NCBI GenBank assembly: GCA_016192455.1
Contig: JACPUC010000008.1
Location: 248,001-312,000, forward strand
Source: Candidatus Tectimicrobiota bacterium
GTDB taxonomy: Bacteria > JACPUC01
DNA: 64,000 nt
Reading direction: 5' to 3'
A program made the position numbers and the translations under genes. Positions 24,859-39,469 of the stretch are shown piece after piece (the first letter of the stretch is position 1; each line of letters begins with the position of its first letter). The notes under the pieces were generated by a model, which did no database searches, was not told where the DNA came from, and saw only the letters and a program-made list of their open reading frames with translations.

Positions 24859-25022
24859 GTGACCACCCCTCGGCTTCAGCCACGCCCGTGAGTCTCTTCT
24901 CCGGGGATGAGCGTCCGCGGGTGGCGGGGTGAAAGGCGAGGGTGCAACCCCGCCCGCCCCTTTCCAGAGGTCGCGGGGAGACGAACCCGCGCTGCCGTTT
25001 GCCTCTCCTGGGTGCGCGAGCC

Positions 25023-25511
25023 ATGGCCGCAAAGGACGCCGCGAAAAACGGCGTCAAGATCATCTGTCAGAACAAGAAAGCGCGCTTCGAGTACGAGGTG
25101 ATCGAGACGCTGGAGGCGGGGCTTGCCCTGCAGGGCACCGAGGTGAAGTCGCTGCGCGAGGGGCGGGCCAACCTGGCGGACAGCTACGCCGTCATCGAGG
25201 ATGGCGAGGTGATCCTGCTGAACTGCCACATCAGCCCCTACGCCCCGGGGAACATTCACAACCACAATCCGCTGCGGCCGCGCAAGCTCCTGTTGCACAA
25301 GCGCGAGATTCGCCGGCTCTACGGCAAGCTGGCGGAACGGGGCCTGACGGCGGTTCCCCTGCGCCTTTACTTCCGCAACGGGCTGGCCAAGGCTGAAATC
25401 GCCCTGGTGCGCGGCAAGAAGCTGTACGACAAGCGCGAGACCATCAAGCGCCGCGACGCCCAGCGCGACATCGAGCGCGTCTTCCGCCGCAGCCAGCGGG
25501 GCGGGAAGTAG
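25023..25511 (+). CDS. smpB: SsrA-binding protein SmpB
   Basis: 162 residues. SmpB binds tmRNA and brings it to stalled ribosomes for trans-translation. Family signatures are all present: KKARFEYEVIETLEAGLALQGTEVKSLR, the NCHISPYAPGN segment, RPRKLLLHKREI, and the basic C-terminal tail ALVRGKKLYDKRETIKRRDAQRDIERVFRR. ATG 25023 is chosen as it gives the canonical length; an open frame upstream is not conserved sequence. The partner RNA gene ssrA lies 2.7 kb downstream. Confidence 0.95.
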   Translation: MAAKDAAKNGVKIICQNKKARFEYEVIETLEAGLALQGTEVKSLREGRANLADSYAVIEDGEVILLNCHISPYAPGNIHNHNPLRPRKLLLHKREIRRLYGKLAERGLTAVPLRLYFRNGLAKAEIALVRGKKLYDKRETIKRRDAQRDIERVFRRSQRGGK

Positions 25512-28163: not shown

Positions 28164-28531
28164 GGGGGCGAACTGGGTTCGACGGGGGTAATTGAGCGTT
28201 TTGCTGCATGCCGAGGTCGTCACCAACCTCGTAAATCAGGTGGCACACCAAGCAAGTGCGGAAACCGAAGCACTTCCTCTGGCTGCGTAACAACTCGGCC
28301 AGCGTTCTCCCTGCCCGCGCCTCTGGGGTGGGATGAGGGCGTCATAAACAGAGACTAGCGCCGCAGGTTCCGCCTGGCTGCCTGTCGCGCGAACCAACGC
28401 CGGACTAGGGACCGGTTGTATCCCCCGCCCGTGGGAGTGACCGGCCCGAAATATCCAATAACGAGGCTACGCATGTAGACGCACGGCGTGAAGACCTTCG
28501 GACGCGGGTTCGATTCCCGCCGCCTCCACCA
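28164..28531 (+). ncRNA. ssrA: Transfer-messenger RNA (tmRNA)
   Basis: One-piece tmRNA of 368 bases with CCA encoded. The 5' acceptor strand GGGGGCG pairs with the 3' strand CGCCTCC before ACCA, and AACTGGGTTCGACGG follows the 5' strand. GCATGCCGAGG...CCTCGTAAA forms pseudoknot 1, with CACC/GGTG as its second stem. The 3' end has a perfect T-arm (CGCGGGTTCGATTCCCGC). The tag frame ends in codons for ETEALPLAA and TAA. The resume codon is either GCG (tag AETEALPLAA) or the GCA two codons earlier (ASAETEALPLAA); sequence alone does not decide. No terminator follows directly. One is found after a second, truncated copy 6.7 kb downstream. Confidence 0.95.
28342..28531. repeat. Left direct repeat: 3' half of ssrA
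   Basis: The last 190 bases of ssrA recur in the same orientation at 35063-35252 with eight substitutions and no gaps by my alignment. The final 48 bases, including the whole T-arm and acceptor, differ at one position only. Confidence 0.9.
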
Positions 28532-28577
28532 ACTACGAAGCTTCCCATCATGGGCTGTCGCGGCGGATAATGACGAA

Positions 28578-28925
28578 ATGCGCAAACTGAGGGTGTTTCT
28601 GCTACTGCTGCTTTGCATCGCGATCCCGCTCCAGGGATTCGCGCACATGTCCGTGGCAGAGACGACTTACGCGATGGAACACGCCGCGGCTGAGTTCATG
28701 GCGGATGCAGCAACCCCGCATGACTGTTGCGACAATGCCGACACCCCTGCCAAGACCACCGGCAAGGCGTGCGGTCAGTGCGGCAGCCCGTGTCCTGTCT
28801 TTCAGGTGCGCACTCATTCGCCTGCGCCCGTTCATGCCGTCCGCTTCCCCCGGTTCCGCCTGATCGAGCTATTCGTTCACTCCTTCTATCCCTCCAGCGT
28901 CTGGCGCCCGCCAGCTCTCTTCTGA
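28578..28925 (+). CDS. Small secreted Cys/His-rich protein
   Basis: 115 residues. A clear signal peptide (LRVFLLLLLCIAIPLQGFAH) is followed by a stretch with Met, His and Cys (HDCCDNADTP, ACGQCGSPCP). No named family, but small proteins of this type often open RND heavy-metal efflux operons of proteobacteria and may bind Cu or Ag in the periplasm. It starts 46 bases after the tmRNA 3' end and is followed 113 bases later by the CusC-like gene. Confidence 0.6.
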   Translation: MRKLRVFLLLLLCIAIPLQGFAHMSVAETTYAMEHAAAEFMADAATPHDCCDNADTPAKTTGKACGQCGSPCPVFQVRTHSPAPVHAVRFPRFRLIELFVHSFYPSSVWRPPALF

Positions 28926-29038
28926 CTCCCTGAAACACCAAGTGCCGCGGCCGTTTGTCTCTGACAGACGGTGATGGGGTTGTCCGCGCGCGTGAAGCCT
29001 TGCTTCATTGCCGCGCGCTCCTCGAAGGGAGTTGGTCT

Positions 29039-30322
29039 ATGCATTTTCCCGAATCTGCCACCCGGCCAGGGCGGTCTGTTGCGTACCGCGTGGCCGTGAC
29101 GGTCCTGCTGGCAAGCCTGAGCGGCGTGGCTAACGCCGATGCCCTTTCATTTCAGGAGGCGCTGGCTTTGGCTTTGCGCGAGACGCCGGTCCTGAGGGCG
29201 AACACCGCCCAGGTCGATGCCGCCACCCAAGCGGCGATTCCCGCGGGAGCACTGCCGGACCCCAAACTCGCGCTGGGTGTCGACAACCTGCCGATTGACG
29301 GCCCCGACCGCTACAGCCTGAGCCGTGATTTCATGACCATGCGGCGCATCGGCGTGATGCAGGAGTTTCCCAACCGGGCCAAGCGCAAGGCGCGTGTGGC
29401 GGCCGCGCAGGGCCGGGTGGCCGTGGCCGAGGCGCAGACCCGCGTCACGCGGTTGACCGTACTGCGGGAGGTAGCGGTCGCCTGGATCGCGCGCGGCAGC
29501 ATCGAGCGCCAGCTTACGCGCAGCGATGCCCTCCTGGCCGAAAACCGCCTGTTCGAAGCGGCCGTGCGCGCGCAGCTCGCGGCTGGCAAAGCTGCAGCGA
29601 GCGAGGTGGTCGCGCCACGGCAGGAAGCCGCGCTGATCGAAGAGCGCCAAGACGTCCTGCGCGCGCAGCGCGAGCAAGCCCTTGCACAGTTACGGCGCTG
29701 GATCGGACCAGCGGCGCAGGCGCCGCTGACAGGCGTGGTTCCTGACTGGCCTATCGAACGCGATGGGCTGCTGCGCCGCCTGCGCCAACACCCGGAACTG
29801 GCCGCGTTCGACCCCAAGGCCCGTGTTCTCGAGGCGGAACGGGCCGAGGCACAGGCGGCCAAGAAACCGGACTGGGCGCTGGAATTGGCCTACCAGCAGC
29901 GCGGCCCGCAGTTTGGCGACATGGTGTCACTGCAAGTCAGCTTCGACTTGCCGCTGTTCGCCGGCTCGCGCCAGAACCCGCAGATCGCGGCCAAACTGGC
30001 CGAGCGGACCGCGCTTGTGGCCGAGCGCGAGGCCATGCTGCACGAACACGCGGCCGCGCTTGAAGCGGATTTCGCCGAGTACCAGCGCCTTGTGAATGCC
30101 GTCCAGCGCCAACGTGAGGTGCTGCTGCCGCTGGCCGAGGAGAGGGTGACGCTCGCGCTGGCCGGCTGGCGCGGGGGCAAAGGCAGCCTGACCGAACTGA
30201 TCGCCGCCCGCCGCGAACGCATCGACGCTGAACTCAAAGCCATCGCACTGGAGGGCGAACGTCAGCAGATGGCCGCCCGCCTGCACTACGCCTATGGCGA
30301 CATCGCCGGAGAACAAGGATGA
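29039..30322 (+). CDS. Outer membrane efflux protein, TolC/CusC family
   Basis: 427 residues. A signal peptide (VTVLLASLSGVANADA) precedes two TolC-type repeats of long helices: LSFQEALALALRETPVLRANTAQVDAA near the start, and SDALLAENRLFEAAVRAQLAAGKAAASEV and later equivalents. It forms the outer-membrane channel of the tripartite exporter encoded downstream. ATG 29039 follows GGGAG. The stop overlaps the next start as ATGA. Confidence 0.85.
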   Translation: MHFPESATRPGRSVAYRVAVTVLLASLSGVANADALSFQEALALALRETPVLRANTAQVDAATQAAIPAGALPDPKLALGVDNLPIDGPDRYSLSRDFMTMRRIGVMQEFPNRAKRKARVAAAQGRVAVAEAQTRVTRLTVLREVAVAWIARGSIERQLTRSDALLAENRLFEAAVRAQLAAGKAAASEVVAPRQEAALIEERQDVLRAQREQALAQLRRWIGPAAQAPLTGVVPDWPIERDGLLRRLRQHPELAAFDPKARVLEAERAEAQAAKKPDWALELAYQQRGPQFGDMVSLQVSFDLPLFAGSRQNPQIAAKLAERTALVAEREAMLHEHAAALEADFAEYQRLVNAVQRQREVLLPLAEERVTLALAGWRGGKGSLTELIAARRERIDAELKAIALEGERQQMAARLHYAYGDIAGEQG

Positions 30323-31806
30323 AACATCCCAAGAAAATCTTGCTGATACCCGTCGTCGCTTCCGCGCTGCTGGCGCTCGGCGCAACGGGCGGAGGGTGGT
30401 GGGCGAGGCACGACGCCAGGTCCGCCAGCACGGCAGCGCACGCGCCGCAGGCCGCCGCGCAGACTGAGCGCAAGGTGCTGTACTGGTACGACCCGATGGC
30501 CCCGCAGCAGCGCTTCGATCAACCCGGCAAGTCGCCGTTCATGGGCATGGAACTGGTGCCCAAGTATGCCGATGAGACCGACAAGGGCAGTGGGGTCAAG
30601 ATCGATCCCGCAGCGATCCAGAACCTCGGTGTGCGACTGGCCAAAGTCGAGCGCATGCCGCTGGCGACTCAGGTCGGGGCTACCGGTCTCATCGCTTTCA
30701 ACGAGCGCGACGTGGCGGTGGTGCAGAGCCGGGTTGGCGGCTTCGTCGAGCGAGCCTGGCCGCTGGCCCCGGGCGATGTCGTGAAGGCTGGCCAGCCCCT
30801 GGTGGAATTGCTGGTGCCGGAGTGGGCCGCGGTCCAGCACGAGTGGCTGGCGCTGCGATCCGTCGGTGACGCGGCGCTGCAGGCCGCCGCAAGCGAGCGG
30901 CTGCGCCTTTCGGGTATGCCGGAGGCCCTCATTCGCGAAGTCGAGCAAAGCGGCACAGCGCGTTCGCGCTATACGGTGACCGCGCCCATCGGCGGCGTGG
31001 TGCAGGCCCTCGAGGTGCGCGCAGGCATGACCGTGATGGCGGGACAGACGCTGGCGCGCCTGAATGGACTGTCCACGGTATGGCTGGACGTCGCGGTGCC
31101 CGAGGCGCTGGCCGATGCGGTGCGCGTGGGCAGCCGAGCCCAAGCGCGACTGCCCGCTTTCCCCGGACAACTCATCGAAGGTCGAGTGACCGCGATCTTG
31201 CCAGCGCTGCAAGAAACCACACGCAGTCTGCGGGTGCGGGTGGAGCTGCCGAACCCGAACGGCCGTCTGCGTCCCGGCCTGTCCGCCCAGGTGACGCTCA
31301 CCTCGCCGTTGCAGGACACCGCGCTCGCCGTACCGACCGAGGCGGTGATTCGCACCGGCCAACGCGCCCTCGTGATGGTGGCGCAGGACAACGGGCGATT
31401 CATGCCGGTGGAGGTCACGCTGGGCCGCGAGATCGGTGACCGCACCGTGATCGCCGCGGGACTCGCCGAGCGGCAGCACGTGATCGCCAGCGGGCAGTTC
31501 CTGATCGACTCGGAGGCGAGCCTGCGCGGCATCGTTCTTGGCGCGGCGAGTGAGCCGGCGGCCATGGCCTCCACCGCATTGCACGAGGCCGACGCCACGA
31601 TCGAAGCGATCGAGGGCAACAAGATCACGCTCGCGCATGGGCCGTTCAAGACGCTCGCCATGCCAGGCATGACGATGGCGTACCCGCTGGCCAATCCTGC
31701 CTTGGTCCAGGGCCTGAAAGTCGGCGACAGGGTGCGCATCGGTGTGCGCCAGACGGATGCGGGCCTCGTGGTCGAGCGTCTCGAACAAACACGAGGTGGT
31801 AGATGA
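30319..31806 (+). CDS. cusB: RND periplasmic adaptor, CusB-like, with N-terminal metal-binding and C-terminal CusF-like domains
   Basis: 495 residues. An N-terminal membrane anchor or signal is followed by a heavy-metal-binding segment at 54-83 ([12 protein letters not shown]...[10 protein letters not shown]), the barrel-sandwich hybrid ([13 protein letters not shown]...[13 protein letters not shown]), an alpha hairpin and the beta-barrel. Residues 423-495 form a CusF-like metallochaperone domain with TLAMPGMTM, where the Trp of CusF is replaced by Met. CusF is a separate protein in E. coli, so here it is fused to the adaptor. Four-base overlaps (ATGA) with the genes on both sides show tight translational coupling. 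Substrate: most likely Cu(I)/Ag(I). Confidence 0.88.
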
Positions 31807-34800
31807 TCGCCCAACTCATCCACTGGTCGGTCGCCAACCGCTTTCTGGTGCTGCTGACGACCTTGTTCCTCACGGTCTGGGGCATCTGGTCGGTCACGAC
31901 CATACCCATCGACGCGCTGCCCGATTTGTCCGACGTGCAGGTGATCATCCGCACGAGTTACCCGGGCCAGGCGCCGCAGATCGTCGAGAACCAGGTGACC
32001 TACCCTTTGGCCACCACCATGCTGTCGGTGTCCGGCGCCAAAACGGTACGCGGCTTCTCCTTTTTTGGCGACAGCTTCGTCTACGTGCTGTTCGAGGACG
32101 GCACGGACCTGTACTGGGCGCGCTCCAGGGTGTTGGAATATCTCAACCAGGTGCAGGGGCGATTGCCGGCCACCGCCAAGCCCGCCCTGGGGCCGGATGC
32201 CACGGGTGTGGGCTGGATCTACCAGTACGCGCTGATCGACAAGACCGGCCGGCACGATCTCTCGCAACTACGCGCGCTGCAGGACTGGTTCTTGAAGTTC
32301 GAGCTGAAGACCCTGCTCAACGTCGCCGAAGTCGCCACCGTCGGCGGCATGGTTAAGCAATACCAGATCGTGCTCGACCCGGTGAAGCTCGTGAGCCTCG
32401 GCATCACGCACGAGCAAGTGATCGACGCCTTGCGCCGCGCCAACCAGGAAACCGGTGGGTCCGTGCTCACCCTGGGCGAAACGGAACTGATGGTGCGCGC
32501 CAGCGGCTACCTGAAGTCGATCGACGATTTCCGCGCGATTCCGCTCAAGCTCGAAGGCGGCGTGCCGGTGACGCTTGGCGATGTCGCCCACATCCAGCGC
32601 GGCCCCGAGATGCGGCGCGGTATCGCCGAACTCGACGGCGAAGGCGAGGTGGTGGGCGGCGTGGTCGTCCTGCGCTCGGGCAAGAACGCGCGCGAGACGC
32701 TGGCCGCCGTGCACGCCAAGCTCGAATCCCTCAAAGCCAGCCTGCCCAAGGGTGTGGAGATCGTCACCACCTACGACCGAGGCGCGCTCATCGACCGGGC
32801 CATCGACAACCTCTCGTACAAGCTGATCGAGGAGTTCATCGTCGTCGCGCTCGTCTGCGCGCTGTTCCTGTGGCATCTGCGTTCGTCGCTGGTGGCCATC
32901 GTGTCCCTGCCGCTCGGGGTGTTGATCGCCTTCATCGTCATGCGCCATCAGGGCATCAACGCCAACATCATGTCGCTGAGCGGCATCGCGATTGCTGTGG
33001 GCGCCATGGTCGATGCGGCCGTGGTGATGATCGAGAACGCCCACAAAAAGGTGGAGGTCTGGCAGCACGCGAATCCGGGCGAGACACTCAAGGGCGACGC
33101 GCACTGGCAAGTGATGACAGAGGCAGCGGTCGAGGTGGGTCCGGCGCTGTTTTTTTCGCTGCTCATCATCACCCTGTCTTTCATCCCCGTGTTCACCCTG
33201 GAAGCGCAGGAGGGGCGCTTGTTCGGGCCGCTCGCCTTCACCAAAACCTATGCCATGGCGGCCGCGGCGGCCCTCTCGGTGACGCTCATCCCGATCATGA
33301 TGGGCTACTGGATACGCGGCAAGCTGCCGGATGAGTCGCGCAATCCGCTCAACCGCTGGCTGGTGCGTGCTTATCACCCGCTGCTGGATGCGGTGCTGGC
33401 ACGCCCCAAGCTCACGCTCGTGCTGGCCGTGCTGCTCACCCTCACCGCGGCCTGGCCGATCAGCCGCCTCGGCGGCGAATTCCTGCCGCCGCTCGACGAA
33501 GGTGATCTGCTCTATATGCCAAGCGCGCTACCGAACTTGTCAGCCCAGAAGGCCGGCGAGATATTGCAGCAGACTGACCGCATGATCAAGACCGTCCCCG
33601 AAGTGGCGCGCGTGTTCGGCAAAGCAGGCCGCGCCGAGACCGCCACGGATCCGGCGCAGTTGGAGATGTTCGAGACCACGATCCAGTTCAAACCGCGTGA
33701 TCAATGGCGGGCGGGCATGACGGCCGCGAAGCTCGTGGAGCAACTGGACCGGGCCGTCCAGGTGCCGGGGCTGACCAACATCTGGATTCCGCCCATCCGC
33801 AACCGCATCGACATGCTCGCCACCGGCATCAAGAGCCCCATCGGCGTCAAGATTGCCGGGACCAATCTGGCCGATATCGACCGCGTCGCGCAGCAGGTGG
33901 AACGCATCGCCAAAACCGTGCCCGGCGTCTCATCGGCGCTGGCCGAGCGCCTCACCGGCGGGCGCTACGTCGATGTCGAGATCGACCGCGCGGCTGCCGC
34001 CCGCTACGGGCTCAACATCAGCGAAGTGCAGTCCGTGGTGGCGAGCCTCATCGGCGGTGAAAACGTCGGCGAGACCGTGGAGGGCCTGGCGCGCCATCCG
34101 ATCAATGTCCGCTATCCACGCGAGTGGCGCGACACGGTGGAGCGTCTTGCGCAACTGCCCATCGTCACGCCCATGGGCAGCCAGCTCACGCTGGGCACGG
34201 TGGCACGCGTCAAGGTCACCGACGGCCCACCCTTCCTCAAGAGCGAAAACGCGCGCCCCAGCGGCTGGGTGTACGTCGATGTGCGCGGCCGCGATCTGGC
34301 CTCCACGGTGGCCGATCTGCGTGCGGCGGTCACGCGCGAGGTCAGGCTCGAACCTGGCATAAGCCTGGCCTATTCCGGTCAGTTCGAGTTCATGGAACGC
34401 GCCAACGCGCGGCTCAAACTCGTGGTGCCGGCCACCTTGCTGATCATCTTCGTGTTGCTGTATCTCACCTTCGCCCACTTTGACGAAGCCTTGCTGATCC
34501 TCGCCACGTTGCCCTTCGCGCTCACCGGCGGCGTGTGGTTCCTGTACCTGATGGGCTTCAACCTGTCGGTTGCCACTGGGGTGGGCTTCATCGCGCTGGC
34601 CGGGGTGGCGGCAGAGTTTGGGGTGGTCATGCTGATCTATCTCAAGCACGCCTGGTACGACCGGATCGATGCCGGCCAAGCGACCGAGTCCGGCCTGCTC
34701 GATGCGATCCGCGAAGGTGCCGTGCTGCGTGTGCGGCCCAAGGCGATGACGGTGGCCGTCATCGTTGCCGGCCTCTTGCCCATTCTGTGGGGGAGCGGCA

Positions 34801-34955
34801 CAGGCAGCGAGGTGATGAGCCGCATTGCCGCTCCCATGGTGGGCGGCATGGTCAGCGCGCCGCTCTTGTCCTTGTTCGTTATTCCCGCAGCGTACCGGCT
34901 GATGCGCCGCCGGCAACTTCCCTCAGCCACTCATCCGCAAACGAAAAGAGACTAA
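31803..34955 (+). CDS. cusA: Heavy-metal RND efflux pump, CusA-like
   Basis: 1050-residue inner-membrane proton-driven pump with 12 helices. Family marks include [20 protein letters not shown] at the N-terminus, [10 protein letters not shown], the membrane segment [23 protein letters not shown] with the proton-relay Asp and Glu, and [19 protein letters not shown], where the Met is a Cu/Ag ligand in CusA. It exports monovalent Cu/Ag through the CusB- and CusC-like partners. Its start overlaps the adaptor stop (ATGA). Base composition is somewhat less extreme than that of neighbouring chromosomal genes. Confidence 0.92.
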
Positions 34956-34957
34956 CC

Positions 34958-34997
34958 ATGAAGAAATCGATCCCTTCTATATTAGTACTCCTGTGTC
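34958..34997 (+). pseudogene. Truncated start of a fifth operon gene at the island's right junction
   Basis: Immediately after the CusA stop, ATG 34958 opens a frame MKKSIPSILVL that looks like the start of a secreted protein's signal peptide. After about ten codons the sequence changes into the ssrA-related segment. The gene body is missing, so the junction (near 34985-34997) cut the operon. Confidence 0.55.
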
Positions 34998-35252
34998 ATA
35001 AAGTTCCTCCCGCCCGCGTCTCCCTGCCGCACCAGAGGCAGGGGTGGCGGCGGAGGAGGACCTCATAAACAGAGACCAGCGCCGCAGGTTCCGCCTGGCT
35101 GCCTGCCGCGCGAACCAACGCCGGACTAGGGACCGGTTGTATCCCCCGCCCGTGGGAGTCACCGGCACGAAGCACCCAATAACGAGGCTACGCATGTAGA
35201 CGCACGGCGTGTAGACCTTCGGACGCGGGTTCGATTCCCGCCGCCTCCACCA
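34995..35252 (+). pseudogene. ssrA: 5'-truncated second copy of ssrA
   Basis: The last 190 bases match the intact tmRNA gene with eight substitutions. The 60-70 bases before that correspond to the central pseudoknot region but are diverged, with their own pairing segments (CCTCC...GGAGG and CTGCC...GGCAG). The 5' tRNA-like half, pseudoknot 1 and tag codons are absent. The T-arm and CCA are perfect, so it decayed little. It is followed by a strong terminator. Confidence 0.8.
35063..35252. repeat. Right direct repeat: 3' half of ssrA
   Basis: Partner of 28342-28531. Differences cluster in a short stretch near 35160-35177 and elsewhere are single substitutions. Confidence 0.9.
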
Positions 35253-35261
35253 ATTCGCCGC

Positions 35262-35290
35262 AAGGCCAACCGGTGACGGTTGGCCTTTTT
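35262..35290 (+). terminator. Rho-independent terminator after the truncated ssrA copy
   Basis: Perfect 10-bp stem AAGGCCAACC (35262-35271) with GGTTGGCCTT (35278-35287), six-base loop, then a T-run to 35290. It sits ten bases after the CCA end and is probably the original ssrA terminator. Confidence 0.85.
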
Positions 35291-35446: not shown

Positions 35447-36046
35447 ATGGAATCTTCTCACCAAGCTCTCCTCGACCTGGCCAAGCACCATGGTCTGATA
35501 CGCCCGCGCGACCTGGCGCCCCTGGGGATTTCACGGGTTGCCCTGACACGGCTTGTGCGCCGCGGGATGCTCGAGCGGGTCGGCCGTGGCCTCTATGCGC
35601 TTCCAGACCGGTCCGTCTCCGAGCATGCTGCTCTGGCCGAGGTCGCCCGCAAGTACCCGCAGGGAGTGATCTGCCTGCTGTCGGCACTGCGATTCCACAA
35701 CCTCACCACCCAGTCCCCCTTCGAAGTCTGGCTGGCAATTCCGAACAAGGCCCGCGCGCCCCGGCTCGAGTACCCACCGCTGCGGATCGTGCGATTCTCC
35801 AGCCAGGCTCTTATCGAAGGCATGGAGGAGCACGTGGTCGACGGTGTTCCGGTCCACGTGACCACCGTTGCCAAGACGGTGGCCGACTGCTTCAAGTACC
35901 GGAACAAGATCGGCCTGGACGTAGCTCTCGAAGCGCTACGGGAGGCGTGGAGAGAGAAGCGCGTCAGCATGGACGAGCTATGGCGCTATGCCCGGGTCTG
36001 CCGGGTCAGCAATGTGATGCGGCCTTATCTCGAAAGCCTGACGTGA
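35447..36046 (+). CDS. abiEi: Type IV toxin-antitoxin system antitoxin, AbiEi family
   Basis: 199 residues. An N-terminal winged-helix DNA-binding domain (ALLDLAKHHGLIRPRDLAPLGISR...LVRRGMLERVGRGLY) is followed by the AbiEi C-terminal domain (GVICLLSALRFHNLTTQ, VHVTTVAKTVADCFKYRNKIG). It represses its own operon and neutralises the nucleotidyltransferase toxin in characterised systems. The reading frame is intact. Start chosen at ATG 35447; an in-frame TTG at 35411 would lie inside the operator. The stop overlaps the toxin's GTG start (GTGA). GC content is visibly lower than in flanking chromosomal genes, consistent with transfer. Confidence 0.88.
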   Translation: MESSHQALLDLAKHHGLIRPRDLAPLGISRVALTRLVRRGMLERVGRGLYALPDRSVSEHAALAEVARKYPQGVICLLSALRFHNLTTQSPFEVWLAIPNKARAPRLEYPPLRIVRFSSQALIEGMEEHVVDGVPVHVTTVAKTVADCFKYRNKIGLDVALEALREAWREKRVSMDELWRYARVCRVSNVMRPYLESLT

Positions 36047-36944
36047 ACAAGCGGAACATGGCGGCCTCGGTGCGCGCCCGGTTGCTCGACAAGGCCCGTG
36101 CCGAAAAACTGGACTTCAACCTCCTCCTCACCCGTTACGCACTGGAACGCCTCCTCTATCGGTTGAGCACCTCGCTTTACGCCGATCAGTTCCTGCTCAA
36201 GGGCGCACTGCTGTTCGACCTATGGTTCGGCATTTCACACCGACCAACCCGCGATGCCGATCTGCTGGGGCTCGGTTCGGCAGAAGTACGGCACATCGAC
36301 ACCGTGTTCCGAGGACTATGTGCGGTTGCGGTTGACGACGGAATTGTCTTCCAACCGGAATCGGTACGTGTCGAGGAAATCCGCAAGGAGGCCACATATC
36401 CCGGTGTGCGCGTGACTCTCGTGGGCCTGATCGAGAAGGCGCGCTGCCGGTGCAGGTTGACATTGGTTTCGGCGATGCTGTCACGCCGGGTCCAGAAGCC
36501 ATTGAGTACCCGGTAGTGCTTGCCGATCTGCCGGCGCCGAGGCTGCGCGCGTACCCGCGATATTCGGTGATCGCCGAGAAACTTGAAGCAATTGTGTCGC
36601 TCGGCATTGCCAACAGCCGCATGAAGGACTACTTCGACCTGCGGATCCTGGGCAGGTACAGCGATTTCGACGGCGGCATCCTCTGCCAGGCGATCCGCGC
36701 TACCTTCGATCGGCGGAACACGCCGCTACCGGAGGGTGTGCCGCTCGGCCTGTCTGACGAGTTCGCGCAGGATCGGCGGAAGCAGGTGCAATGGCAGGCA
36801 TTCTTGAAGAAGAACGTGTTGACCGCCACCACGCTGGCCGAGGTCGTGGCATCGCTGAGGGCGTTCCTGATGCCGCCGCTCGATGCGCTTCATCAAGAAG
36901 CGGAGTTCCCACGACGGTGGCGAGCCGGTGGCGTGTGGGAATAG
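36043..36944 (+). pseudogene. abiEii: AbiEii nucleotidyltransferase toxin, disrupted by a frameshift
   Basis: The first frame (from GTG 36043) encodes NMAASVRARLLDKARAE and the nucleotidyltransferase core LLKGALLFDLWFG...RPTRDADLLG. The protein then continues in another frame from about 36445, with VQVDIGFGDAVTP, YSVIAEKLEAIVSLG and RMKDYFDLR, the expected rest of the family. The break is at the codons after IEKAR: restoring one C after 36444 would give IEKARLPVQVDIGFG. Both halves are otherwise well kept, so the single-base loss is recent or a sequencing error. As it stands the toxin is inactive. Confidence 0.85.
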
Positions 36945-36963
36945 CGCTCGGCGCTCGCGTCGG

Positions 36964-37058
36964 TTGCGGAGGCAGGAATCGAACCGCTGACAGGGGATGT
37001 AAGGTTCAAGCTGGTACCGGCATCGAGAACCAGCAGGGCACCGTTTGAACATCCCCTG
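36964..37058 (-). repeat. Nested inverted repeat next to a tRNA-like 3' end
   Basis: Three nested pairings: CAGGGGAT (36991-36998) with ATCCCCTG (37051-37058), GTTCAA (37004-37009) with TTGAAC (37045-37050), and GCTGGT (37010-37015) with ACCAGC (37029-37034). On the minus strand it is followed by GGTTCGATTCC and GCCTCCGC, like a tRNA T-loop and acceptor end, but the T-stem is not paired and no 5' half is present. It is probably a decayed tRNA fragment or attachment site. Confidence 0.4.
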
Positions 37059-37404: not shown

Positions 37405-38622
37405 ATGGGATCAGCCATGGCAACCACCACCGATGACCGAGTCTCCACCTTGACCGCCTTTCTCATTTTCCTGCGACTGGGCCTGACCTCGTTCGGCGGG
37501 CCGATCGCCCACCTCGGCTATTTTCGGGACGAGTTCGTGGCGCGCCGACGCTGGCTCAGCGAACAGAGCTATGCCGACTTGGTGGCCCTCTGCCAGTTCT
37601 TGCCCGGACCGGCCAGCAGTCAGGTGGGCATCGCCATCGGCCTGTCGCAGGCCGGCCTACCCGGCGCGCTGGCCGCGTGGCTGGGCTTTACCCTCCCCTC
37701 GGCGTTGGCGCTGACCCTGTTTGCCCTGGGGATGACCATGTGGGGAAATGTTCTGGATGCTGGACCGCTGCATGGTCTCAAGGTGGTCGCGGTTGCGGTC
37801 GTGGCGCAAGCCGTCTGGGGCATGGCGCGCAATCTTTGCCCCGACGCAGCGCGAATCACGCTGGCCGCGGCGGCGGCCGGCATCGTGCTCCTCTGGCCGA
37901 CCGCCTGGGGACAAGTCGGCGTGATCGCCGCCGGCGGAGTCGCCGGCCTGCTTCTGTTCAAACCCGAATCCCAGGACGAGCACTCGCCGCTGCCGATCAC
38001 GGTCAGTCGCCGGATGGCCCTGGCTGCGCTGCTGGTGTTTTTCTGTTTCCTCGTCGGCTTGCCGCTGGCCGCGCAAAGCGGGCAGAGCCAGACCTTGTCG
38101 TTGATTGATGCCTTCTACCGAGCGGGTTCCCTGGTGTTCGGCGGCGGCCATGTGGTGTTGCCACTCCTGCAATCCGAAGTCGTTCCCCCTGGTTGGGTCA
38201 GCAAGGAAGCTTTCCTCGCCGGCTATGGCGCGGCGCAGGCAGTGCCGGGGCCGCTTCTCACCTTCGCCGCCTATCTCGGCGCCGTGATGCGTCCGGCGCC
38301 GAATGGCTGGCTCGGTGGGCTGATCAGCCTGCTCGCCATCTTCGCACCCTCGTTCCTCTTGGTCGTCGGTGTCTTGCCGTTCTGGGAGCGGCTGCGCCGG
38401 CACCTCCGTACCCAAGCAGCTCTGCGTGGCATCAACGCGGCTGTCGTCGGCCTGCTGTTGGCCGCCCTCTATCACCCTGTGTGGACCAGTGCCATCCTAA
38501 GACCGGCCGATTTCGTCCTCGGTTTAGCCGCCTTCGTAGCCCTGGCGTTCTGGAAACTGCCGCCGTGGTTGGTGGTGCTCCTCAGCGCGCTGGGCGGCTG
38601 GCTCCTTGGCATCTTGTCGTAG
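37405..38622 (+). CDS. chrA: Chromate transporter ChrA
   Basis: 405-residue long-form CHR protein with two homologous halves. Each half carries the family pattern: FLRLGLTSFGGPIAHLGYFRDEFV and LCQFLPGPASSQVGIAIG in the first, FYRAGSLVFGGGHVVLPLLQSE and AAQAVPGPLLTFAAYLG in the second. It exports chromate from the cytoplasm. ATG 37405 follows GAGGG; ATG 37417 is an alternative. A PadR regulator gene follows 21 bases later. The gene lies in the accessory region after the AbiE locus and may be part of transferred DNA. Confidence 0.92.
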   Translation: MGSAMATTTDDRVSTLTAFLIFLRLGLTSFGGPIAHLGYFRDEFVARRRWLSEQSYADLVALCQFLPGPASSQVGIAIGLSQAGLPGALAAWLGFTLPSALALTLFALGMTMWGNVLDAGPLHGLKVVAVAVVAQAVWGMARNLCPDAARITLAAAAAGIVLLWPTAWGQVGVIAAGGVAGLLLFKPESQDEHSPLPITVSRRMALAALLVFFCFLVGLPLAAQSGQSQTLSLIDAFYRAGSLVFGGGHVVLPLLQSEVVPPGWVSKEAFLAGYGAAQAVPGPLLTFAAYLGAVMRPAPNGWLGGLISLLAIFAPSFLLVVGVLPFWERLRRHLRTQAALRGINAAVVGLLLAALYHPVWTSAILRPADFVLGLAAFVALAFWKLPPWLVVLLSALGGWLLGILS

Positions 38623-38643: not shown

Positions 38644-38979
38644 GTGACGGACAAGGACTTGTATGGCGGACTGATCCGCCTGCACATCCTCTATCATGCA
38701 GCACAAGGACCGATCTTCGGCCTGGGTATCATGGAAGAATTGGCGCGGCACGGCTATGACATCAGCGCGGGCACGCTCTACCCGATGCTGCACGGACTCG
38801 AACGCAAGGGCTATCTGCGGTCGCGCCACGAACGAACGGGGCGTCGCGAGCGGCGCATCTATGAGATCACCCCCGAGGGTTTGGCGGCCCTGCAATCTGC
38901 CCGTATCAAAGTCAAAGAGTTATTCGGGGAATTGTTCGAAGACGGTCCTGATGAGGCTGCGGGAGGCTGTGCAGATTGA
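38644..38979 (+). CDS. PadR-family transcriptional regulator
   Basis: 111 residues: a winged-helix DNA-binding protein with the family pattern FGLGIMEELARHGYDISAGTLYPMLHGLERKGYL and RRIYEITPEGLAAL. The GTG start is preceded by gagga. It lies directly behind chrA and probably controls it. The C-terminal dimerisation helix is short, as in PadR subfamily 2. Confidence 0.85.
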   Translation: MTDKDLYGGLIRLHILYHAAQGPIFGLGIMEELARHGYDISAGTLYPMLHGLERKGYLRSRHERTGRRERRIYEITPEGLAALQSARIKVKELFGELFEDGPDEAAGGCAD

Positions 38980-39032
38980 CGCTCTGGCAGCCACGGCGGC
39001 ATCTCTTGGCCACAGGTGAGCGGGTTCACACC

Positions 39033-39190
39033 GCACGACGCGTCCGCTGCTTCTCCCCCAACATCGGCGGATCGACCGAGGGATCGACCAGGGTCGCGTC
39101 GGGCGGAAGGGTCTCGTTAGGAATCGCGGCAACGACCTCCGACGCCAGGATCGGCAGATTGAGTAGCCGGTCCACGTAGCCGCGGTCGAT
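39033..39190 (-). pseudogene. C-terminal remnant of a possible recombinase
   Basis: The minus strand encodes RKRQGIDRGYVDRLLNL and PILASEVVAAIPNETLP and ends at a stop near 39033. The helix-turn-helix-like string followed by LASEVVAAI resembles the C-terminal end of recombinase-family proteins, but I cannot be certain. No start or N-terminal part is present. The rest of 38980-39469 shows no supportable gene. Confidence 0.3.
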
Positions 39191-39469
39191 GCCCTGGCGC
39201 TTTCGTCCGCTCTCCCCGCCCCTCTTACCTGGGCCCCCTCCTTGGACAACCCCACCACCTCAAACCAGGCGCCTTGCCAGCCCCTTGACAATCCCCTCAA
39301 TCCTGTCCAAAAGGGGATCAGAGAGTACCTTCCAGAGGGTTCGAAGCACAGCCGAGGCCGAGCTTCTGGGCTCAAGGCAGTCCTCGACGCGGCGCACGCC
39401 GCAGCCGGGGGCGGGTGATGAGGTTGCGCAGAAGCCACGCGCGGGAGCACGAAAGCATGGGGTGGAACC

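Follow-up and report, generated by a model that had tools for sequence, protein, structure and literature searches.

Foreign DNA behind the tmRNA gene of a Candidatus Tectimicrobiota bacterium: a probable degraded island with an unusually long, diverged copy of ssrA

The tmRNA gene (ssrA) of a Candidatus Tectimicrobiota bacterium (assembly GCA_016192455.1) is followed by a block of foreign-looking DNA that holds a predicted metal efflux operon, a second, 5'-truncated copy of ssrA, and further genes beyond that copy. It lies within the 64,000-nucleotide stretch that was analyzed, which is called here the window. We consider it moderately likely that the block, from 28532 to ~39215, is a composite and degraded island that had landed at the 3' end of ssrA. 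Several features support this. The repeated part of ssrA stops at the 3' end of the gene, the composition of the block is foreign, and its cus, AbiE, and chrA-padR genes have plasmid relatives. The block closes on the right with a probable remnant of an HTH gene, recombinase modules are found behind ssrA and tRNA genes elsewhere, and another tmRNA locus (L057) offers a precedent. Counting against it, the recombinase gene itself is gone from the window, the HTH remnant is a short piece with a weak score, and the right-hand copy of ssrA has 250 bases where displaced pieces elsewhere have 15-26 nt.

Two copies of ssrA in one neighborhood

The smpB gene (24942-25511, PF01668) lies 2.7 kb upstream of ssrA. 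Among the contig matches listed for SmpB, the best reaches 63% over a segment and none is a close relative, consistent with a deep, poorly sampled lineage. The source genome is, indeed, the sole representative of its phylum among the genomes searched. No relative close enough to show the empty site was found in 59 + 386 genomes, a phylum search, and a contig scan.

It is the intact gene, with the predicted tag AETEALPLAA, that produces tmRNA. An intact tmRNA gene with an efflux operon behind it had already been recognized in a sequence-only reading of this DNA, and ARAGORN, Rfam, and family profiles agree with that description (Table 1). The same reading saw the second copy as a same-orientation repeat of the last 190 bases, with eight substitutions. 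The orientation and the substitutions (at ssrA nucleotides 193, 222, 276, 283, 288, 289, 291, and 328) stand; the length does not. BLAST aligns nt 168-368 of ssrA with 35052-35252 (94.5% identity, gap-free, E 1e-87), and the match can be followed leftward, across a diverged PK2, as far as nt 141 (window position 35003). Thus, the right copy comprises ~250 bases. Beyond the CCA end, only 1 base is common to both copies, which means that the repeat ends where ssrA ends. The two copies are spaced 6.7 kb apart, with 6.5 kb of DNA between them, and a search of the genome allowing 3 mismatches gave no third copy of ssrA or of its 3' end.

The PK2 of the right copy carries ~22 extra bases (roughly 35022-35043), nearly all of which are missing from every one of the 80 other tmRNAs compared. 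Its hairpin is stable (z -3.8), and PK4 folds more weakly than in the intact copy (z -0.1 versus -2.65). A reading of this PK2 as the compensatory divergence of a functional allele was softened, because the stability of the hairpin owes much to an insertion that those 80 tmRNAs do not have, and because PK4 is weakened. Judging by the weak PK4 and the odd PK2, the right copy would at present be less than fully constrained; neither feature dates its divergence. The fragment, from which the 5' third, the tag, and one strand (5') of the tRNA-like domain are missing, should be inert. As outgroups, 48 of the 80 tmRNAs are closer to the intact copy and 15 to the right copy. They were set aside as a judge of which copy is original, being non-independent and all near 50% identity.

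Table 1. Features of the ssrA region, in window coordinates
Feature	Position	Strand	Basis
Intact ssrA (tmRNA)	28164-28531	+	ARAGORN; Rfam RF00023, 182 bits, model 1-374
Small Cys-rich ORF, operon gene 1	28578-28925	+	Position and size as hypothetical protein of Pseudomonas plasmid operons
TolC-family outer-membrane efflux protein	29039-30322	+	PF02321
CusB-type periplasmic adaptor with C-terminal CusF domain	30319-31806	+	PF16576, PF16572, PF11604
CusA/CzcA-family RND metal efflux pump	31803-34955	+	TIGR00914, 1388.7 bits (cut-off 701)
Fifth-gene start, lost after ~13 codons	34958-35002	+	Position, signal-peptide-like start
Second ssrA copy, 5'-truncated, nt 141-368	35003-35252	+	BLAST and alignment
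Intrinsic terminator behind right copy	35262-35287	+	Perfect 11-bp stem, 4-base loop, T run
AbiEi-type antitoxin	35450-36046	+	PF13338
AbiEii-type nucleotidyltransferase, two overlapping frames (35947-36516, 36450-36944)	35947-36944	+	PF08843, positions 1-105 and 103-229
Chromate efflux transporter ChrA	37405-38622	+	PF02417; TIGR00937
PadR-family regulator adjoining chrA, as on plasmids	38644-38979	+	PF03551
Probable C-terminal remnant of HTH gene, right end of foreign block	39029-39214	-	tblastn, neighborhood, alignment, HMM

Acquired genes on both sides of the second copy

The genes between the two copies belong together as a CusA/CzcA-family efflux system: a pump scoring over its family cut-off, an adaptor, and a TolC-family protein in one operon. 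The adaptor reaches 363.6 bits against NF007303, the NCBIfam model for CusB, just under the cut-off of 390. The small Cys-rich first gene has no match in Pfam or in NCBIfam. The CusF domain of the adaptor, together with the copper-binding fifth gene of the relatives, points to copper and silver as the substrates of the predicted system.

Those relatives are the Cus operons of Pseudomonas plasmids, which share the gene order (small ORF, TolC, adaptor, pump, fifth gene) at ~73% DNA identity; the RND pump has at most 82.5% amino-acid identity to the plasmid proteins. The plasmid operons run on into their fifth gene, whereas the fifth gene of the window is cut. From its position and its signal-peptide-like start, this would be the gene for the copper-binding protein of the plasmid operons. 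The setting also differs, with the window operon behind ssrA and the compared operons on plasmids. The tetranucleotide usage of the operon is farther from the window background than is that of any 6-kb background segment, a relative measure, of course, with the window itself serving as background.

At the right-hand join, codon ~13 of the fifth gene abuts nt ~141 of ssrA, outside any repeated sequence. This makes it a deletion scar, rather than a misassembly via a repeat. Such a join bears directly on the idea that the ssrA regions of two strains were put together as an artefact. The source genome is incomplete and probably comes from a metagenome assembly (4.46 Mb in 31 contigs, completeness 88%, contamination 2.3%, with the window on contig 7), and ssrA is conserved, so that assemblers can switch there. 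Against this, 6.7 kb separate the copies, which are not the same in sequence, the window has no Ns, and the right join lies outside any repeat that might mislead. We therefore hold an artefact to be very improbable, and the assembly join via the repeat, once offered as an alternative, becomes unlikely.

The sequence-only reading was right that a perfect terminator follows the right copy and that the intact gene has none of its own: nothing comparable to 35262-35287 was found directly behind it. Nor was a metal-responsive regulator identified among the genes of the efflux operon. As neither a terminator behind ssrA nor such a regulator in the operon was found, transcription that starts at the ssrA promoter and reads through may contribute to efflux gene expression. 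Alternatively, these genes may have a promoter of their own, for which a weak promoter-like match (28542-28571) is a candidate.

Foreign-looking DNA also extends beyond the second copy. A sliding scan of tetranucleotide usage shows foreign composition from 28.5 to 39 kb; it runs on past the right copy and returns to background at ~39 kb. This continuation, to ~39.2 kb, had been left out of the earlier account. Its first genes resemble an AbiE type IV toxin-antitoxin pair, in which the AbiEi partner is present and the AbiEii partner is interrupted; the split of the latter over two frames implies either a decayed gene or an assembly error. The best plasmid match of the pair is in Methylomagnum (72%), and chrA-padR has ~70% DNA identity to Pseudomonas plasmids.

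A further integration site may have left a trace between AbiEii and chrA, where 24 nt on the reverse strand (36962-36985) look like the acceptor end and T arm of such an RNA as tRNA or tmRNA. Rfam gives no tRNA or tmRNA match there, and the stretch was left unassigned rather than accepted as a third att site.

The extent of the foreign block changes the argument from the terminator. This had been taken to mark the right copy as the original end of the gene. That argument is weaker when both the right copy and its terminator lie within foreign-looking DNA. Further, in another genome (G281) a terminator-like hairpin, read by eye, stands right behind ssrA on the side of a recombinase module. Thus, a terminator can arrive with an element.

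Islands at tmRNA genes and the search for a recombinase

An island of the Islander type consists of an intact tRNA or tmRNA gene followed by a same-orientation 3' fragment that reaches the end of the gene, the interval of 2-200 kb holding an integrase gene (PMC4383910). The window has the intact ssrA, the cargo, and the same-orientation fragment reaching the 3' end, and its interval of 6.5 kb is foreign in composition and has plasmid relatives. It differs, however, in that the interval holds no integrase gene, and in that the fragment is ~250 bases long, diverged, and begins at a deletion scar in an operon gene. Because the integrase is missing, the block is described here as the remnant of an island and not as a functional member of the class. 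The ssrA islands of Dehalococcoides also lie behind ssrA, where they combine a serine recombinase, DsiB, with tandem accretion (PMC3146451). In contrast to the window, they have 20-bp repeats, often keep their integration module, and carry reductive dehalogenases as cargo.

Among 82 tmRNA genes with downstream sequence, displaced 3' pieces of ssrA measure 15-26 nt where they are found, with the exception of L057. This agrees with the earlier remark that the repeat is far longer than a usual attachment core. Displaced ends of 15-26 nt, typical of ssrA-integrated islands, occur at L023, L025, L030, L087, and L097, and at L030 and L097 two of them stand in succession.

Tandem arrays of this kind suggest a different history for the window, in which two classical islands sit side by side. 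Here, the right copy would be a displaced 3' end plus the ssrA of the attP region of the cus element, and would never have been a whole gene. The foreign DNA on either side of the right copy fits this history, as do the paired short ends at L030 and L097 and the tandem ssrA islands of Dehalococcoides (PMC3146451). However, 250 bases beginning within an operon gene are atypical for an att core, the displaced ends found here being 15-26 nt, and neither of the two islands has a recombinase gene. We judge this history to be quite improbable.

The exception, L057, is a locus in a Geobacteraceae MAG (CAIYDX010000205.1, 10495-13164). There, smpB is followed by a complete ssrA, a tyrosine-integrase-like gene of 565 aa (recognized by eye from its sequence), and a second complete ssrA. 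The two copies have the same orientation and are clearly different, with tags ATADNYAFEARLAA and ANNTTAADNYAFAGAIAA. As in the window, two diverged same-orientation copies of ssrA flank an inserted gene behind smpB. Unlike the window, both copies are complete, an integrase is present, and no metal cargo lies between them. Carried over to the window, such an arrangement would make the right copy what is left of a whole second tmRNA gene, delivered by an island that restores its target with the entire ssrA instead of a short core; with the terminator displaced by 6.7 kb, the ssrA promoter would now drive the efflux genes. In this specific form, we regard the proposal as doubtful.

Integrases described at tmRNA and tRNA genes are mainly of the tyrosine type. 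The window gives no match to tyrosine integrases (Phage_integrase) or to Resolvase, in keeping with the earlier statement that no integrase is visible, but a probable remnant of a recombinase module lies at 39.03-39.21 kb. A link between ssrA and the five Phage_integrase loci of the genome was dropped, as no significant ssrA repeat was found within ~1.5 kb of them. One tyrosine-integrase match in the same genome (G000:C20:308115-308558, locus L117) is near a tRNA-Met gene and likely marks a separate integrated element.

In a tblastn search (E 6e-6, 41% identity), this probable remnant aligns with the C-terminal part of a small HTH protein. On an Agarilytica plasmid, the matching HTH gene comes directly after DUF2924 and recombinase genes. 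A profile HMM of such HTH proteins ranks 39029-39214 first in the whole window (E 0.0013). The segment is thus probably a leftover from a DUF2924/serine-recombinase/HTH module, namely from its third gene. The piece is short and C-terminal, and at 10.5 kb from the intact ssrA it could belong to an unrelated insertion. The DUF2924 and recombinase genes of such an island are missing from the window; DUF2924 is found nowhere in the genome, and the resolvase matches of the genome are on other contigs.

DUF2924 is present in 16 of the 386 genomes searched, and a serine recombinase adjoins it at 17 of the 19 loci examined; of the other two, one ends at a contig edge and one (L163) is a second DUF2924. 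A literature search for DUF2924 turned up Wolbachia phage papers alone. An HTH gene is often part of the DUF2924/large-serine-recombinase modules at tmRNA and tRNA ends. At five loci (L153, L154, L161, L169, and L171, in G281, G180, G137, G251, and G143, respectively), the module is ~2 kb at most from the 3' end of a tmRNA or tRNA gene. In G281 and G180, it stands immediately behind ssrA and convergent with it, with the HTH gene closest; it faces the 3' end of tRNA-Gln in G137 and G143 and that of tRNA-His in G251 in the same manner. In G251, a 63-base repeat (62 identical) begins in the last six bases of tRNA-His and recurs 23 kb downstream. These five placements and this repeat suggest a group of serine recombinases that target tDNA.

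Five tRNA or tmRNA placements among 19 loci would arise by chance with a Poisson probability of ~1e-5, assuming 45 tRNA/tmRNA genes per 3.5 Mb. This, in turn, makes it plausible that a recombinase of the DUF2924 group was the agent of the island in the window, its main genes having since been deleted. The modules of G281 and G180 share with the window the target gene end, and their HTH gene is oriented toward ssrA as the probable remnant is. They are complete, however, whereas the window keeps no more than this short, probable HTH remnant, at the far end of the block.

How the block may have formed, and what it means

In the explanation that we favor, insertion behind ssrA would have been the work of an element whose recombinase targeted this gene and most likely belonged to the DUF2924/large-serine-recombinase/HTH type. 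The cus, chrA, and AbiE cargo would have arrived with this element or with a second one at the same place. One of the incoming elements would have brought a long, possibly complete, ssrA. This would leave a copy on each flank: upstream the intact gene, downstream the displaced copy together with its terminator. A later deletion may then have removed everything from codon ~13 of the fifth gene through nt ~141 of the displaced copy, and a separate deletion the recombinase genes at the right end. If the element carried much or all of ssrA and a deletion came afterward, the absence of an integrase, the fifth-gene scar, and both the length and the divergence of the right copy would be accounted for together.

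The serious rival to an element needs no integrase in the step at all. The incoming DNA, a fragment or a circle derived from a related strain and with cus already joined to a 5'-truncated ssrA, would have undergone a single RecA-type crossover with the resident gene. In its favor, the copies share ~200 bases at 94.5% identity, the interval is without an integrase, and the right join, being non-homologous, could have pre-existed on the incoming DNA. A crossover alone, however, does not explain why the repeat should stop exactly where the gene does (at its 3' end), or why further foreign DNA and a probable recombinase-module remnant lie beyond. It also needs a donor with a near-identical ssrA, and none was found among the genomes searched. 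We consider the crossover rather unlikely.

An island at ssrA remains our preferred reading. What the sequence-only reading had right about it is that horizontally acquired DNA lies at ssrA, as the composition, the Pseudomonas plasmid operons, and the repeat at the 3' end all indicate. The extent of the block, the argument from the terminator, and the agent have had to be revised.

The element in the window is thus degraded and of a known kind; what is unusual about it is the length of its diverged ssrA copy. The displaced part is ~10 times longer than at the other tmRNA genes examined. Here, one locus shows the ssrA landing site both gaining and losing mobile DNA. In the survey, moreover, serine recombinases linked to DUF2924 emerge as a group often located at tmRNA and tRNA genes. 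If whole-gene replacement of ssrA proves to be true, as L057 suggests, then islands can swap the tmRNA of their host, and counts of tmRNA copies would become a way to find islands.
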